The notes below the pieces were generated by a model, which saw only the letters and a list, made by a program, of their open reading frames with translations, had not been told where the DNA came from and ran no database searches. From Prevotellaceae bacterium (GTDB lineage Bacteria; Bacteroidota; Bacteroidia; Bacteroidales; Bacteroidaceae): a DNA stretch of 64,000 nucleotides. The stretch covers positions 1 through 64,000 of the forward strand of contig JAQYEW010000065.1 in assembly GCA_028723455.1 (NCBI GenBank), in the 5' to 3' direction. A program made the translations under genes and the position numbers. Below are positions 23,438-60,045 of this stretch, in pieces; within the stretch, counting starts at the first letter, position 1; every line of letters starts with the position of its first letter.

Positions 23438-23965
23438 TCATCCTTCCTGTGCTACGCGTAAAATGAGTGTGGTGGCTCCAATGGTAACAATGCTTCCTTC
23501 CTCCAGACGTATGCGGTCCTGATCGCGCAGGATTTGGTTCATGTAGAACGTGCCTGTGTTGCTGGGCGCGTCGCGCAGGATATATTGCAGACCTCCGCGT
23601 TTGTCATGCTGGACACGAATGATGCAGTGTTTGGTGTCAATGCTGGGGTCTGTGGTTTCGATGGGCGTGTTGATGTCTGTGCCGCGCACGTAACGTCCGA
23701 TGACGTTGTCGCCCATACAGAGTGGGATGACTTGTTTGTAGTGAAACACATTCTCCACAACCACGATGCTGCCACACTTGTTGGCGTTCTCCTGTTCGTC
23801 AAGCACCTCCTCCTTGCGCGTCGCCTGCAGTTTGCTCTTGCCAATGCGAATGGCAAATTGCTTGCTGCATGTAGGGCAGGAAAAGACCAGTTGCTGGCCG
23901 TCGGTGTATTGGGTCTCGTCGAAGACGATGTAGTTGTCGCACTTGGGACATTTTACTCTTTTCAT
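23438..23965 (-). CDS. Zinc-ribbon plus FHA-domain protein
   Basis: CPKCDNYIVF..CPTCSKQF; FHA-like NVIGRYVRGTDINTPIETTDPSIDTKHCIIRVQ..LRDAPSNTGTFYMN. Confidence 0.75.
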   Translation of the reverse strand: MKRVKCPKCDNYIVFDETQYTDGQQLVFSCPTCSKQFAIRIGKSKLQATRKEEVLDEQENANKCGSIVVVENVFHYKQVIPLCMGDNVIGRYVRGTDINTPIETTDPSIDTKHCIIRVQHDKRGGLQYILRDAPSNTGTFYMNQILRDQDRIRLEEGSIVTIGATTLILRVAQEG

Positions 23966-43270: not shown

Positions 43271-43543
43271 TTACTTTATGGCAGCCTCGAGTTCGGAACC
43301 GGCCTTGATCTTAACCTGCTTCTTGGCGGGGATTACAATCTGCTCGCCTGTGCGGGGGTTCTTGCCGGTACGCGCGGCACGCTCGGCAACGCTCAGGGTG
43401 ATTACACCGGGAATCTGAACCTTCTCGCCGGCTTTCAAGGCCGCCTTTGTTGCCTCAATTGCAGCTTCGATAGCCTTCTTGGAATCAACCTTGCTCAAAC
43501 CGGCTACCTCGGCAACCTTTGCAATCAACTCAGTCTTATTCAT
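43271..43543 (-). CDS. HU-family DNA-binding protein
   Basis: MNKTELIAKVAEVAGLSKVDSKKAIEA.., NPRTGEQIVIPAKK. Confidence 0.93.
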   Translation of the reverse strand: MNKTELIAKVAEVAGLSKVDSKKAIEAAIEATKAALKAGEKVQIPGVITLSVAERAARTGKNPRTGEQIVIPAKKQVKIKAGSELEAAIK

Positions 43544-53087: not shown

Positions 53088-53127
53088 TACTTTAAGACAG
53101 AAGGGAATTATTTTTTAAATTTTGAAT

Positions 53128-54078
53128 ATGAGTTTCTTTAGCAAACTGTTTTCTAAGGATAAGGACAAACAAGAGACCCTGGACCAGGGGCTTCAGAAAA
53201 CCAAGGAGAGTTTCTTTGGAAAGTTGGCACGCGCTGTGTCTGGTAAGGACAAGGTGGACGATGATGTTTTGGATGATCTGGAGGAGGCACTTGTAACCAG
53301 CGATGTCGGTGTGGACACCACGCTGAACATTATCCGTCGTATTGAGGCACGTGTGGCACGTGATAAGTACGTTGGCACAAGCGAACTGAACACCATTCTT
53401 CGAGAGGAGATAGCAGCTTTGTTACAGGAGAATGAACTGACGACTGCCAAGATAGAGGAGAAGAAGCCCTACGTGATTATGGTGGTAGGCGTGAATGGCG
53501 TGGGTAAGACGACAACTATCGGGAAATTGGCGCATCGCTTCAAAAGCCAAGGCTTGAAAGTTGTCCTGGGAGCTGCTGATACATTCCGCGCCGCAGCCGT
53601 GGAACAGATTGTTATTTGGGGTGAGCGTGTGGGAGTGCCTGTAGTGAAGCAACAGATGGGTAGCGATCCCGCCAGCGTTGCCTTTGACACGCTGCAAAGC
53701 GCCATTGCGCAGGATGCAGATGTCGTTATCATTGATACGGCTGGTCGATTGCATAACAAGAAAGGCTTGATGGACGAACTGACAAAAATCAAGCGTGTAA
53801 TGCAGAAACAGGTGAGCGATGCTCCTCACGATATTATGCTCGTTCTGGACGCCAGTACGGGTCAGAATGCTTATGAGCAAGCCAAACAGTTTACAGAAGC
53901 TGTGGATATTACAAGCATGGCGGTAACCAAATTGGACGGTACAGCCAAGGGCGGTGTAGTCATTGGTATCAGCGAACAGTTCAAGATACCCGTGAGGTAC
54001 ATCGGTTTGGGCGAGGGTATGGATGATATGCAGGTATTCGATGCAAAGAATTTCGTAGATACGCTTTTCAAGAAGTAA
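53128..54078 (+). CDS. ftsY: Signal recognition particle receptor
   Basis: VGVNGVGKTTTIGKLAHRF, AADTFRAAAVEQI, IDTAGRLHNK, TKLDGTAKGG. Confidence 0.96.
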   Translation: MSFFSKLFSKDKDKQETLDQGLQKTKESFFGKLARAVSGKDKVDDDVLDDLEEALVTSDVGVDTTLNIIRRIEARVARDKYVGTSELNTILREEIAALLQENELTTAKIEEKKPYVIMVVGVNGVGKTTTIGKLAHRFKSQGLKVVLGAADTFRAAAVEQIVIWGERVGVPVVKQQMGSDPASVAFDTLQSAIAQDADVVIIDTAGRLHNKKGLMDELTKIKRVMQKQVSDAPHDIMLVLDASTGQNAYEQAKQFTEAVDITSMAVTKLDGTAKGGVVIGISEQFKIPVRYIGLGEGMDDMQVFDAKNFVDTLFKK

Positions 54079-55380
54079 ATGATTAGGAACAAGATAGATA
54101 TTATTACTCTGGGATGCAGCAAAAACCTGGTGGACAGCGAACGCCTGATCACCCAATTAGAGGCTGCCGGGTACGAGGTAGAGCACGATAGCGAAATGCC
54201 AGATGGCGAGATTGCGGTCGTGAATACTTGTGGCTTTATTGCAGATGCTCAGGAGGAAAGTATCAATATGATTTTGGAGTTGGGACAGCGCAAGGCAGCT
54301 GGAGATCTTCAGAAGTTGTACGTGATGGGATGCTTGAGCGAGCGATTCTTCACGGATCTGAAGGACGAACTCCCTGAGGTGGACAAGTTCTATGGCAAGT
54401 TCAATTGGACGGATTTGCTTTCTGATTTGGGAAAGCAGTATCGTTTCGATCGTCAGTACGAGCGACGCATAACGACACCAGACCACTATGCCTATCTGAA
54501 AATTAGCGAGGGATGCGACCGCCATTGCAGCTATTGTGCCATTCCCATCATTACGGGGAAGCACAAAAGTCGCCCTATGGAGGAAATTCTGGATGAGGTG
54601 CGCTATCTGGTAAGCCGTGGTGTAAAGGAGTTTCAGGTGATTGCGCAAGAACTGACCTATTACGGTTTGGATCTGTATAAGGAGCGCCGTATTGCCCAGT
54701 TGGTGGAAGCTATCAGCGATATTCCTGGTGTAAGATGGATTCGTCTGCATTATGGCTATCCCCAAGGCTTCCCAACAGAACTGCTCAAAGTGATGCGTGA
54801 ACGCGATAATGTATGCAAATACCTGGATATCGCGCTACAACATATTGCTGATCCGGTCCTGAATGCGATGCACCGTAATATATCAAAACAGGAAACCTGT
54901 GATTTTGTAAATATGCTGCGTCGTGAAGTTCCGGGCATTCATATCCGTACCACCCTGATGGTTGGGCATCCTGGAGAGAGTGAAGAGGCTTTCCAAGAAT
55001 TGTTGGACTTTGTGAAATGGGCGCGTTTCGAGCGGATGGGTGCCTTTGCTTATAGTGCGGAGATGGGGACTTTCAGTGGCGACAACTATGCGGATGAGAT
55101 TCCGCAGGAAGTGAAGGATGCCCGCTTGAGCAAGGTCATGCGTCTGCAGCAACGAATCAGTGGTGAGGTACAGGGTGAAAAGGTAGGCAAAACCTTGCGT
55201 GTAATCATCGACCGCTTGGAAGGCGATTATTATATCGGACGCACAGAATTCGATAGTGCAGAAGTGGATCCCGAGACATTGATTGCTGCCAGCGAGGGTA
55301 CACTGCAGATAGGTGAGTTTTATGATTGTGAGATTTACGGTGCGGACGACTTCGACCTCTATGCACGCGTTAAAGCTTAG
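54079..55380 (+). CDS. rimO: Ribosomal protein S12 methylthiotransferase
   Basis: TLGCSKNLVDSE, EGCDRHCSYCAIP, ELTYYGLDLY. Confidence 0.95.
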   Translation: MIRNKIDIITLGCSKNLVDSERLITQLEAAGYEVEHDSEMPDGEIAVVNTCGFIADAQEESINMILELGQRKAAGDLQKLYVMGCLSERFFTDLKDELPEVDKFYGKFNWTDLLSDLGKQYRFDRQYERRITTPDHYAYLKISEGCDRHCSYCAIPIITGKHKSRPMEEILDEVRYLVSRGVKEFQVIAQELTYYGLDLYKERRIAQLVEAISDIPGVRWIRLHYGYPQGFPTELLKVMRERDNVCKYLDIALQHIADPVLNAMHRNISKQETCDFVNMLRREVPGIHIRTTLMVGHPGESEEAFQELLDFVKWARFERMGAFAYSAEMGTFSGDNYADEIPQEVKDARLSKVMRLQQRISGEVQGEKVGKTLRVIIDRLEGDYYIGRTEFDSAEVDPETLIAASEGTLQIGEFYDCEIYGADDFDLYARVKA

Positions 55381-55394
55381 TAACCAGAATACAC

Positions 55395-55676
55395 ATGAAT
55401 AACAAAGATTTTATTTCCGGGATGGCTAACCGAATGGGCATCAGTACCAAAGAGGTGAGTGCACTTACCCAGCATTTCTGTCAGGAAGTGGGTGCTTTGT
55501 TGGAGAACGAGGACAGTATTAATATCCAGGGTTTCGGCACATTCGAAGTGAAGAAGAAACTGGAACGTGTGGTCATAAACCCTGCTACCAAGCAGCGTAT
55601 GCTGGTACCACCCAAATTGGTCATTAGTTTCAAGGCAAGTTCAACAATCAAGGAACAGCTGAAGGCTATTAAATAA
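55395..55676 (+). CDS. HU-family DNA-binding protein
   Basis: MNNKDFISGMANRMGISTKEVSALTQHFCQEV..NIQGFGTFEVKKKLERVVINPATKQRMLVPPK. Confidence 0.88.
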   Translation: MNNKDFISGMANRMGISTKEVSALTQHFCQEVGALLENEDSINIQGFGTFEVKKKLERVVINPATKQRMLVPPKLVISFKASSTIKEQLKAIK

Positions 55677-55686
55677 GGCGAAGCGC

Positions 55687-56982
55687 ATGAACAATAAGAT
55701 CAATTTTCAGGACTTGGCGGCCAGCTTCGCCCAAAATCACGATGTAACGAAGAAAACAGCAGAAACCTTTCTGCGAAATCTTTTTGACATCGTACAGGAA
55801 TATACTGTGAGCGATGGTCAGGTGAAGATCAAAGGTTTTGGTACGTTCAAAATCGTTGAAGTGGATAGTCGCGAGAGTGTGAACGTGAATACAGGGGAAC
55901 GTGTACTGATAGAAGGTCATTCGAAAATGACGTTTACGCCAGAGGCAAGTTTGCGCGATCAGGTGAACAAGCCTTTTGCTGATTTCTCTACTGTAATTCT
56001 GAATCCAAATACACCGTTGGATGATATGGAAACCATTAACGAAGAGGAACAGGAAGAGACAACAGAGTCCGTAAGTGCGGAAAGTGCGTCGGAAGGGACC
56101 GTACACCCTTCTGCTGACTCTCAGGAAGAAGTTCTGGAGGATAATGAGCAGGATGATGAAACAGACATTGACGAAGACGCTACAGCAGAACAGGAGGAAG
56201 AGTATGATTTGAGTGAGACAACAACGTCATCATATGACCAAGCACCCGTAGCGGAACAACCTGATGAGGAACCGCTGAGGCGGGGTGGGCCTCGCCGGAA
56301 GATTTTAGAACCGAAACGCGAAGTAAATGAGGAGGATAAGTCTATGTCTGAACAAATGCCAGTCAATCATATCGCTCACCAAACGGTTGAGCAGATGAAT
56401 ATCGGTTCACAGTATGTGGCTAACCAAACCATCCAACAGATGGTTGCAAACGCAGTGAAGGAAGAAATGAAGCAACGAGGAGGACTTGTCTTGAGCAAAC
56501 GCATGCTTGCTGTCTTGACAGCGTTGATTCTTGTGCTTCTGGCTTGTATGTTCCTTGTCGGTTATCACATCGGTTTTCGCAGAATGACACCGCAGGTAAG
56601 TATTGAGACGAAGCAAGTACATACTCCTAAACAAGCGGCACCCCCACAAACTGTTGTCAAACAGGAGGAACAAAAACAGTCCGTAGGGGCGACGACAGAA
56701 AATACAGCCAGATCAGGGTCGCAGGCAAAATCGGTTGAATTGAAGCGACAGGCGGAGAATTACGAACAGTTGGCGGAGGGCGATTACCTGATAGTAGGAG
56801 AGAAAGAGCCGCATATCATGGCACGAGGCGACAACATGTACCGTATCGCAAAAAAAACGTACGGCAATTATCGTTTAGCGAATTATATCATACATTTTAA
56901 TAAGTTCCGCAACCCCGACGTGGTAAGCCCTGGTACCAAGGTGCGTTTGCCGGAATTAGTAAAGAAAGATGAACTAAGATAA
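55687..56982 (+). CDS. HU-domain / acidic linker / TM / LysM protein
   Basis: N-term HU-like (KIKGFGTFKIVEVDSRESVNVNTGERVLIEGHSKMTFTP); TM RMLAVLTALILVLLACMFLVGYHIGF; C-term LysM-like HIMARGDNMYRIAKKTYGNYRLANYIIHFNKFRNPDVVSPGTKVRLPEL. Confidence 0.82.
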   Translation: MNNKINFQDLAASFAQNHDVTKKTAETFLRNLFDIVQEYTVSDGQVKIKGFGTFKIVEVDSRESVNVNTGERVLIEGHSKMTFTPEASLRDQVNKPFADFSTVILNPNTPLDDMETINEEEQEETTESVSAESASEGTVHPSADSQEEVLEDNEQDDETDIDEDATAEQEEEYDLSETTTSSYDQAPVAEQPDEEPLRRGGPRRKILEPKREVNEEDKSMSEQMPVNHIAHQTVEQMNIGSQYVANQTIQQMVANAVKEEMKQRGGLVLSKRMLAVLTALILVLLACMFLVGYHIGFRRMTPQVSIETKQVHTPKQAAPPQTVVKQEEQKQSVGATTENTARSGSQAKSVELKRQAENYEQLAEGDYLIVGEKEPHIMARGDNMYRIAKKTYGNYRLANYIIHFNKFRNPDVVSPGTKVRLPELVKKDELR

Positions 56983-56992
56983 AAAGTTATTA

Positions 56993-57027
56993 AAAAGCAA
57001 AGGCCCACTTCCGGCTTTTGCTTTTTT
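56993..57027 (+). terminator. Hairpin downstream of the HU/LysM gene
   Basis: AAAAGCAAAGGCC CACTTCC GGCTTTTGCTTTT. Confidence 0.75.
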
Positions 57028-57110
57028 TAAATCTATATAGTTGCCTATGTATTTGAAAAGGCTTAATTTTGAATGTTAATTCAAACATACAGATACAAAG
57101 CAAAAGAATT

Positions 57111-58106
57111 ATGGCAGATATAGTAGATATCCGCGCCTTAAATGAGCGAATTGAGCAAAAAAGTGCTTTCATAACAAACCTGCAAACAGGCATGGCTCAG
57201 GTGATTGTGGGCCAGAAGCATTTGGTTGAATCTCTATTGATTGGTCTCTTGAGTGACGGTCATGTGCTCTTGGAAGGTGTACCCGGCCTGGCAAAGACAG
57301 CAGCTATCAAAACCTTGGCGATGCTGGTGGACGGCAAGTTCAGCCGAATTCAATTCACTCCCGACCTGTTGCCTGCGGACGTGATTGGCACTATGATATA
57401 CAGCCAGAAGGAGGAGAGGTTCCATGTAGAACAGGGTCCGGTCTTTGCCAATTTCGTTTTGGCTGATGAGATTAACCGTGCTCCCGCAAAGGTGCAAAGT
57501 GCACTGTTGGAGAGTATGCAGGAACATCAGGTTACCATTGGTAAGCAGACTTTTGCTTTGCCTTCGCCCTTCCTCGTTTTGGCAACGCAAAACCCCATAG
57601 AACAAGAGGGAACTTATCCTTTGCCCGAGGCACAGGTGGATCGTTTCATGATGAAGGTTGTCGTTGATTATCCCCAGTTGGAGGAGGAGAAGAAAATCAT
57701 TCGTTTGAATATCACCGGCGAGAGCCAAGAGGTACGTCCCGTGGTTAGCACAAAGGACATCGAGGAGGCGCGCGAAATCGTGCGTCAGGTGTATATTGAC
57801 GAAAAGATAGAGCAATACATCGTTGATATGGTTTTTGCCACACGTTATCCTGAAAAATATGGCTTGCAAGAAATCAAGAATTACATAGAGTTCGGTTGTT
57901 CGCCTCGCGCCAGCATCAACTTGGCTTTGGCAGCACGTGCTTATGCCTTTATCAAGCATCGTGGCTATGTAATTCCTGAGGATGTACGTGCCGTGGCCTT
58001 TGATGTTATGCGCCATAGAATCGGTTTGAGCTATGAGGCCGAAGCAGCGGACATTAGTGTAGAAGAGATTATCAGTAAGATTATCAATAAGGTAGAAGTG
58101 CCCTGA
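57111..58106 (+). CDS. MoxR-family AAA+ ATPase
   Basis: LEGVPGLAKTAAIKTL, LLPADVIGT, ADEINRAPAKVQSALLESMQEHQVTIG, ATQNPIEQEGTYPLPEAQVDRFMM; start set at MADIVDIRAL. Confidence 0.95.
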   Translation: MADIVDIRALNERIEQKSAFITNLQTGMAQVIVGQKHLVESLLIGLLSDGHVLLEGVPGLAKTAAIKTLAMLVDGKFSRIQFTPDLLPADVIGTMIYSQKEERFHVEQGPVFANFVLADEINRAPAKVQSALLESMQEHQVTIGKQTFALPSPFLVLATQNPIEQEGTYPLPEAQVDRFMMKVVVDYPQLEEEKKIIRLNITGESQEVRPVVSTKDIEEAREIVRQVYIDEKIEQYIVDMVFATRYPEKYGLQEIKNYIEFGCSPRASINLALAARAYAFIKHRGYVIPEDVRAVAFDVMRHRIGLSYEAEAADISVEEIISKIINKVEVP

Positions 58107-58978
58107 TGGATACGTCGGAACTACTGAAGAAAGTCCGGCAGATTGAGATTAAGACACGAGGTCTGTCGAATAATATCTTTGCGGGCGAGTATCACTCTGC
58201 CTTCAAAGGTCGTGGCATGGCCTTCAGCGAGGTGCGAGAGTATCGCTATGGTGATGATGTACGCGATATTGAATGGAATGTAAGTGCCCGATTCAACAAA
58301 CCTTACGTAAAGGTCTTTGAGGAAGAGCGTGAACTGACAGTAATGCTGCTGATCGATGTCAGTCAGAGTTTGGATTTTGGCACCACAGGCCAGCTGAAGC
58401 GTGATATGCTGACAGAAATTGCCGCCACGCTGGCTTTTAGTGCCATACAGAACAATGACAAGATCGGTGTCATCTTCTTTTCTGATAAGATGGAGAAGTT
58501 CATTCCTCCAAAGAAAGGACGCAAGCATATACTTTATATTATTCGTGAGTTGCTCGGCTTCAAACCGGAAAGTACACGCACAGATATTGCTGTACCCCTG
58601 CAATATTTGACGCAGGCTTTGAAGCGTCGTTGTACTGCCTTTGTACTGAGTGATTTCATCGACCGCAAGGACTACACTACATCTCTGACAATCGCCAACA
58701 GCAAGCACGATGTTGTTGCCATTCAGATTTATGACCGCCGCATAGAAGAACTGCCGGACGTAGGTCTGATGAAGGTCTTTGATCCAGAAACCATGCACGA
58801 GCAATACATCGATACCAGTAGCCGATACGTGCGCAAAGCACACGCAGCTTGGTGGCGGCAGCAGCAAGAAATCCTCCATCAGCGACTGACGAAATGTAAT
58901 GTTGATAGTGTAAGTGTTCGTACAGGTCAGGATTATGTAACATTCCTAAGAAATTTGTTTGCCAGACGTATTCGATGA
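58106..58978 (+). CDS. DUF58 domain protein
   Basis: GEYHSAFKGRGMAFSEVREYRYGDDVRDIEWNVSARFNKPYVKVFEEERE. Confidence 0.93.
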   Translation: MDTSELLKKVRQIEIKTRGLSNNIFAGEYHSAFKGRGMAFSEVREYRYGDDVRDIEWNVSARFNKPYVKVFEEERELTVMLLIDVSQSLDFGTTGQLKRDMLTEIAATLAFSAIQNNDKIGVIFFSDKMEKFIPPKKGRKHILYIIRELLGFKPESTRTDIAVPLQYLTQALKRRCTAFVLSDFIDRKDYTTSLTIANSKHDVVAIQIYDRRIEELPDVGLMKVFDPETMHEQYIDTSSRYVRKAHAAWWRQQQEILHQRLTKCNVDSVSVRTGQDYVTFLRNLFARRIR

Positions 58979-60045
58979 AGCATCTATACCTATTTTTTAC
59001 TTTCATAATTACTTCCGTAGCCATTGAGGCCCAGGTGGTTGTAAATGCGAAGATTGACAGTCTTCAACTTTTTGTTGGCGAGCAGACGGGCATTACGGTG
59101 GACGTTACCGTTAACAGCAACCAACGTGTTGAAATGCCTGTACTTTCACCAGGCATGGCCTTGGTGCCGAACGTAGAGGTGATAAAGAGCTTGCCTGTGG
59201 ATACGAACCTGCTGAACGATGGCCAACGCATGCAGATTCTGAAAAAGTATATCATTACGGCCTGGGACTCTGCACTCTACTATCTGCCTCCCATGGAAGT
59301 AAAGGTGGATGGGAAATCCTATAAATCGAAGAACTTGGCTTTAAAGGTTTATACGGTGGATGTAGACACGCTGCATGTCGACCGTTATTTTGGCCCTAAG
59401 TCAGAGATGAATCCCAACTTTGCATGGGATGATTGGAAGTTCATTGTTTGGGGCAGTATGGCCGTAGTACTGTTGGTAGTCTTGGCTCTTTATGCGCTGA
59501 TTTCCTTGCTAACGGGAGCACCTATCATTCGTATTCGTCGCAAGCCTAAAGCACCTGCCCACGAGATTGCTTTGAAAGAGATTGAAAAAATCAAGCAAGA
59601 GCGCATTTGGCAAACAGATGATAGCAAGGCATATTATACCCAGCTGACTGATACCTTGCGTACTTATATTCAGGACCGTTATGGCTTTAGTGCCATGGAA
59701 ATGACATCGTCTGAAATTATTGAACGATTGACGGCGGAGAATGACGAGAAAGCCCTGAATGAACTGCGTGGCTTGTTCCAAACGGCTGATTTGGTCAAAT
59801 TTGCCAAGCACCGTACGCAGATGAACGAGAACGATGCCAATCTGATGACTGCACTTCAGTACGTTGAGCAAACGAAGAAGGAACCCACGCCCGAGGAAAC
59901 GAAGACGATAGAAGAGGTTACGCCAGAGCAGAAGCGTACGCAGCGTGAACGTGCATCTCTCCTTGTAGCCACCATCGCCTTTGTTGCTTTTGCGCTGTGT
60001 TTACTTGCTTACATAGTATGGCGCGTTTACGATTTAATGATGTGA
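58975..60045 (+). CDS. Bat-operon membrane protein (signal peptide, periplasmic domain, TM, DUF4381-like tail)
   Basis: Position in operon; FIVWGSMAVVLLVVLALYALI TM. Confidence 0.7.
   Translation: MKHLYLFFTFIITSVAIEAQVVVNAKIDSLQLFVGEQTGITVDVTVNSNQRVEMPVLSPGMALVPNVEVIKSLPVDTNLLNDGQRMQILKKYIITAWDSALYYLPPMEVKVDGKSYKSKNLALKVYTVDVDTLHVDRYFGPKSEMNPNFAWDDWKFIVWGSMAVVLLVVLALYALISLLTGAPIIRIRRKPKAPAHEIALKEIEKIKQERIWQTDDSKAYYTQLTDTLRTYIQDRYGFSAMEMTSSEIIERLTAENDEKALNELRGLFQTADLVKFAKHRTQMNENDANLMTALQYVEQTKKEPTPEETKTIEEVTPEQKRTQRERASLLVATIAFVAFALCLLAYIVWRVYDLMM

Follow-up and report, generated by a model that had tools for sequence, protein, structure and literature searches.

To our knowledge, direct links between DNA and the cell wall are rare, with few direct candidates known, and little is established about nucleoid positioning with respect to the envelope in Bacteroidota. 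In RodZ, a cytoplasmic helix-turn-helix (HTH) fold of the DNA-binding type is used for MreB binding and is joined through one transmembrane (TM) segment to a periplasmic domain. Closer to the present case are the HU-CCDC81_bac–TM–SPOR proteins, which combine two divergent CCDC81-type HU domains with a SPOR domain; Burroughs et al. 2017 reportedly linked the HU-CCDC81_bac family to chromosome partitioning. That study (Cell Cycle 16:1093) is cited in PMC5906684. Rv3852 of Mycobacterium tuberculosis is a TM-anchored nucleoid-associated protein that influences peptidoglycan synthesis through Wag31 (PMC8233713).

The window (the whole stretch of 64,000 nucleotides analysed here, from a genome of 75 contigs and 2.5 Mb) itself encodes a protein of the HU–SPOR kind. 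P0003 (23986..25167, minus strand; 393 amino acids) has two HU-CCDC81 domains, one TM segment at residues 203-221 and a SPOR domain (PF18174 4.1e-10, PF18175 1.6e-9, PF05036 2.3e-12). Just downstream of this gene lies one for a protein with a zinc ribbon and an FHA domain (23438-23965, minus strand; FHA 2.1e-10), with a ribonuclease-G-like gene beyond. At 55687..56982 the same window holds a different combination, an HU domain joined through one TM segment to a LysM domain. Our literature search found no paper with both 'HU domain' and 'LysM domain', though a description beyond the searched literature is possible, and related literature queries returned no description of the HU–LysM protein. 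Such proteins are surely present in automated databases.

The HU–LysM protein and its neighbours

The intact open reading frame at 55687..56982 (plus strand) encodes a 431-amino-acid protein. A sequence-only reading had proposed an N-terminal HU/IHF-like domain, and several lines of evidence now place that fold at residues 1-94 (55687..55968). PF00216 spans residues 8-94 (E=2.7e-20, 72.8 bits against a cut-off of 22.4) and is found in 33/33 homologues; an AlphaFold model built with 33 homologues gives the domain a pLDDT >90; and HU/IHF structures rank first in Foldseek, the top PDB structure being Lactococcus lactis HU (5lvt, E=1.7e-8). After HU helix 3 the alignment reveals a family signature, N-[KR]-P-F-[AS]-x-F, here NKPFADF (residues 94-100, 55966..55986). 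Its residues N94, P96 and F97 are invariant in 33 homologues and likewise in 81/81, and N94 is invariant in set A2 too.

The long acidic linker that follows (55987..56460, about 160 amino acids) is disordered, modelled with low confidence, and carries a computed net charge of about -35, in agreement with the earlier description. A single hydrophobic segment had also been claimed. It corresponds to a TM helix at residues 273-291 (56503..56559; Kyte-Doolittle mean 3.03) with the basic residues SKR on its N-terminal side, and a hydropathy scan found no second candidate. Less remains of the coiled region that had been placed after it: this part is mostly disordered or of low confidence, the long AlphaFold helix at 245-299 being the TM segment with its flanks and a further short helix lying at 344-356. 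The folded HU and LysM cores form pLDDT blocks of 91-98.

The C-terminal LysM-like module (residues 366-424, 56782..56958) is weak as a lone sequence and solid by family profile and structure model. The single sequence scores below the Pfam cut-off (PF01476, E=0.19, 16.4 bits against 20.9), and PF01476 is matched by 12/19 relatives. The C-terminus also matches NCBIfam PRK11198 (2.9e-5) and, by phmmer, E. coli Kbp (8.2e-5). A profile built from 19 homologues matches LysM structures in the PDB at 1e-13 to 1e-8, among them Ecp6 (1e-13), the Thermus thermophilus NlpC/P60 protein (4e-9) and Kbp (7e-9). A separate model of the C-terminus has a pLDDT of 88 and a pTM of 0.76, with a pLDDT of about 95 in the LysM part. 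We interpret these profile and model results to indicate that the domain belongs to the LysM fold.

As a LysM domain, it would bind peptidoglycan. Alternatively, its ligand could be an ion, a protein or a non-wall glycan, in the manner of Kbp or phage-baseplate LysMs, which would make the protein a membrane-anchored HU. The closest solved structures by Foldseek are those of Kbp, which is cytoplasmic and not a wall binder, and of contractile-tail/baseplate LysM proteins, followed by the T. thermophilus and Ecp6 LysMs, although the E-values for so short a domain are modest (best 1.2e-3); Phage_tail_X is also matched weakly by 4/19 relatives. Counter to this, the profile fits the wall or chitin binders Ecp6 and T. 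thermophilus NlpC/P60 equally well or better, and the predicted periplasmic site adjoins peptidoglycan. We regard a non-wall ligand as very unlikely.

Directly upstream, separated by 10 nt, is a stand-alone HU gene (55395..55676, plus strand; 93 amino acids) that had been suggested as a partner. Its product is a real HU (PF00216 6.4e-24) and probably the second subunit: a stand-alone HU gene occupies this position on the same strand in 80/80 named Bacteroidales loci and in 56/56 loci of a second set, the two sets overlapping in part as some genomes are in both collections. The spacing is usually within 20 nt, or the genes overlap by 1-8 nt, and start-stop overlap is common. With an HU neighbour in every locus examined, the two genes together make up an HU pair.

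Upstream of the pair lie, as identified by content, ftsY (53122-54078, plus strand) and rimO (54079-55380, plus strand), conserved neighbours in Bacteroidales: the order ftsY–rimO–HU–HU-LysM recurs in nearly all 80 loci, and moxR–DUF58–BatD often comes next. In the window, moxR, DUF58 and BatD-like genes occupy 57069..60045 on the plus strand (AAA_3 5.8e-66, DUF58 1e-76, BatD 1.2e-4) and are probably a separate unit. Three loci (L042, L075 and L091) have about 2.5-4 kb between the HU–LysM gene and moxR, against 0.03-0.3 kb in most relatives. Directly after the HU–LysM gene, a hairpin seen by eye at 56992..57028 (plus strand; AAAAAGCAAAGGCC-loop-GGCTTTTGCTTTTTTT) is an apparent, unconfirmed intrinsic terminator; a consensus scan for terminators and promoters gave nothing usable and did not report it. 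The window also contains a third stand-alone HU, of classical type (43277-43543, minus strand). Of the HU matches in the genome it is the strongest (PF00216 9.7e-29), and it is presumably the housekeeping HU.

Conservation of the layout and its distribution

A search of genome_contigs with the single sequence found nothing. An alignment-based search returned 554 relatives, of which 80 were retained as named Bacteroidales loci; the nearest named relatives among those retained are uncultured Prevotellaceae/Bacteroidaceae metagenome assemblies. Homologues occur in 34/36 genomes of the same genus, which rules out a chance or misread reading frame, and in several other families of Bacteroidales. 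Named carriers include Bacteroides fragilis, B. faecis, B. fluxus, Phocaeicola massiliensis, Paraprevotella clara and Alloprevotella rava. Two records under other names, Pseudobutyrivibrio sp. (L069) and Clostridium sp. (L103), hold the Bacteroidales ftsY-rimO-HU-HU-LysM cluster and are probably misnamed or contaminated metagenome assemblies.

Across >100 distinct homologues in Bacteroidales the parts keep one order, HU–acidic linker–single TM–LysM, even though the sequences have drifted to an identity of mostly 20-40% with the window protein; conservation on this scale puts the architecture far beyond chance. We scored 116 sequences for layout (110 distinct overall, as some loci may be one genome in two collections), and exactly one TM segment was found in 116/116. 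Lysine and arginine residues flanking it are more numerous on the HU side in 83 of these proteins and less numerous there in 4. By the positive-inside rule, this asymmetry predicts a cytoplasmic HU domain and a periplasmic LysM domain, and so upholds the proposal that the two lie on opposite sides of the membrane.

The linker ranges from 47 to 325 amino acids, with a median length of 138 and a median net charge of -33. Such drift in length while the layout stays is as expected of a spacer. It bears on the possibility that the protein is a transmembrane envelope sensor, in which the LysM domain would read the state of the wall and alter DNA binding by the HU pair, the link being informational and not mechanical. 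Analogues would be ToxR and other DNA-binding regulators held in the membrane or, in architecture, RodZ. The layout is the same, with a DNA-binding domain inside and a ligand domain outside, and the HU pair is specialised and not generic. Yet passage of a conformational signal through a disordered linker of such variable length is unlikely, and an HU with little sequence specificity would give poor promoter-selective output. We consider a sensor rather unlikely, if the least so of the alternatives raised here.

Within a broad sample of Bacteroidales the HU–LysM protein is patchy: 24/119 genomes match, a few only partially, against 109/119 for PF18174, which is near-universal. As most of the families sampled are without it, the HU–LysM protein is not universally needed in the order.

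A phylum-wide search added a single family with full-length relatives, f46, which is assigned to a different class of the phylum and which we suspect to be Balneolaceae. Its members (L123-L138) have the same layout, with the LysM domain recognised by profile comparison (hhalign probability 98). Outside Bacteroidales and f46, the second-lineage profile found only plain HUs of about 95 amino acids in the class and phylum searched, and presence throughout the phylum is ruled out. The HU/HU-LysM pair is therefore patchy at this scale also, with nothing full-length between the two lineages in the sampled genomes. The motif VN-x-PFA-x-x-E stands directly after the HU fold in both (VNAPFAHLE in the f46 lineage), and this sharing makes common descent or transfer more likely than separate fusion events.

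In f46 the pair is flanked differently, by a HemW-like gene and another gene. Since it persists amid other neighbours, positional hitchhiking of the HU gene is ruled out, and the survival of the pairing in a changed neighbourhood argues for a shared function.

DNA-contact residues and a candidate tether

Although its membership of the HU fold stands, the membrane HU of Bacteroidales lacks the canonical arm-tip proline and basic DNA contacts (residues are counted in E. coli HU numbering). Arm-tip position 63 is V or I in 80/81 sequences, so that the intercalating proline is lost, and positions 55, 61, 80 and 83 are non-basic. With these losses the domain may bind DNA poorly on its own. The partner HU has P63 in 81/81, basic residues at K53, K54 and K55, and K or R at position 80; the membrane HU has gained H/K at positions 74/76, where the partner has K/V. 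This complementarity fits an asymmetric heterodimer, and we infer that the two HUs form one.

The losses could also mean that the membrane HU no longer binds DNA and serves only to bring the partner HU, or some other protein, to the membrane, leaving any link to DNA indirect or absent. A scaffold role of this kind has been proposed for eukaryotic CCDC81 HU domains, and the membrane HU of the window protein has a net charge of -1. Against a pure scaffold, R58 is invariant and N62, T65, G66 and R68 are nearly so in the Bacteroidales arm, the arm of the f46 membrane HU retains NP and K83 in 14/14, and the partner is a well-charged HU. We think a scaffold unlikely, somewhat more so than a sensor and slightly less so than a non-wall ligand.

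Coevolution was assessed by a mirror-tree comparison with shared phylogeny removed. The partial r between the HU and the HU domain is 0.42, a modest signal that is no more than suggestive, since two control pairs, length-matched pieces of unrelated genes, reach 0.38-0.40. For comparison, HU–LysM gives 0.11, and the HU domain and LysM of one and the same protein give about 0. The arm of the f46 partner HU is unusual, reading SYNPHYK, with Y61 in 16/16 and mostly Y at position 58 in place of the usual arginines.

As the best explanation for the pair we lean, by a modest degree, towards a nucleoid–envelope tether made by two genes. In it, the heterodimer of the small HU (55395-55676) with the HU domain encoded from 55687 would bind chromosomal DNA without strong sequence specificity. 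From there the acidic, flexible linker, by repelling DNA, would lead to the inner-membrane helix and keep it clear of the chromosome, and the periplasmic LysM domain would grip the glycan strands of peptidoglycan. The pair would thereby keep stretches of the nucleoid close to the wall, aiding chromosome organisation or segregation, and would act side by side with the cell's HU–TM–SPOR protein of septal type. More tentatively, a heterodimer with one membrane-spanning subunit could anchor the bulk chromosome to peptidoglycan wall-wide, in parallel to the septal HU–SPOR tether, so that the nucleoid would have anchoring points both along the wall and at the site of division; this is a possible arrangement that we hold with less than even confidence. 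We infer tethering, and go no further than that, because the membrane HU has lost contact residues and, among solved LysMs, the nearest belongs to cytoplasmic Kbp.

If the tether is real, one protein of a short, genetically tractable two-gene unit links DNA to the wall in common gut Bacteroides. It would also suggest that HU-based connections to the envelope evolved twice, separately, in this phylum, once through LysM and once through SPOR.

Comparison with known systems

The HU–LysM protein shares with classical HU and IHF the HU fold, the dimer surfaces and the arm, and a heterodimer encoded by two genes, as with HUab and IHF, is likely. It differs in being membrane-anchored and, in Bacteroidales, in the replacement of the arm-tip proline and the loss of several basic contacts. 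Kbp/YgaU, the T. thermophilus NlpC/P60 protein and Ecp6 resemble it in the single LysM, which is C-terminal in the HU–LysM protein, but have neither an HU domain nor its topology.

Two further proteins are alike in plan. RodZ also joins a cytoplasmic fold of the DNA-binding type through one TM segment to a periplasmic domain, but the fold is an HTH and not an HU, there is no LysM, and the two are not homologous. Rv3852 is likewise a nucleoid protein held by a TM segment and tied to peptidoglycan; it is, however, unrelated, its TM segment is C-terminal, and it acts via a protein partner without a periplasmic wall-binding domain (PMC8233713).

The HU-CCDC81_bac–TM–SPOR proteins, from the same phylum, come closest. 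In both, a cytoplasmic HU-superfamily domain is followed by one TM segment and a periplasmic domain of peptidoglycan-binding type, with the HU part inside. Membership of HU-CCDC81_bac is nevertheless ruled out for the HU–LysM protein, on HU type and wall domain alike: PF18174 is absent, PF18175 reaches only 0.037 (14.4 bits against a cut-off of 35), and a LysM stands where the family has SPOR. The HU–LysM protein has instead one classical HU (PF00216) and a long acidic linker, and a free HU subunit is encoded next to it. By analogy, it plausibly works like the HU-CCDC81_bac–TM–SPOR proteins. The related idea of an HU-based link to the envelope is already known from these HU(CCDC81)–TM–SPOR proteins of Bacteroidetes.
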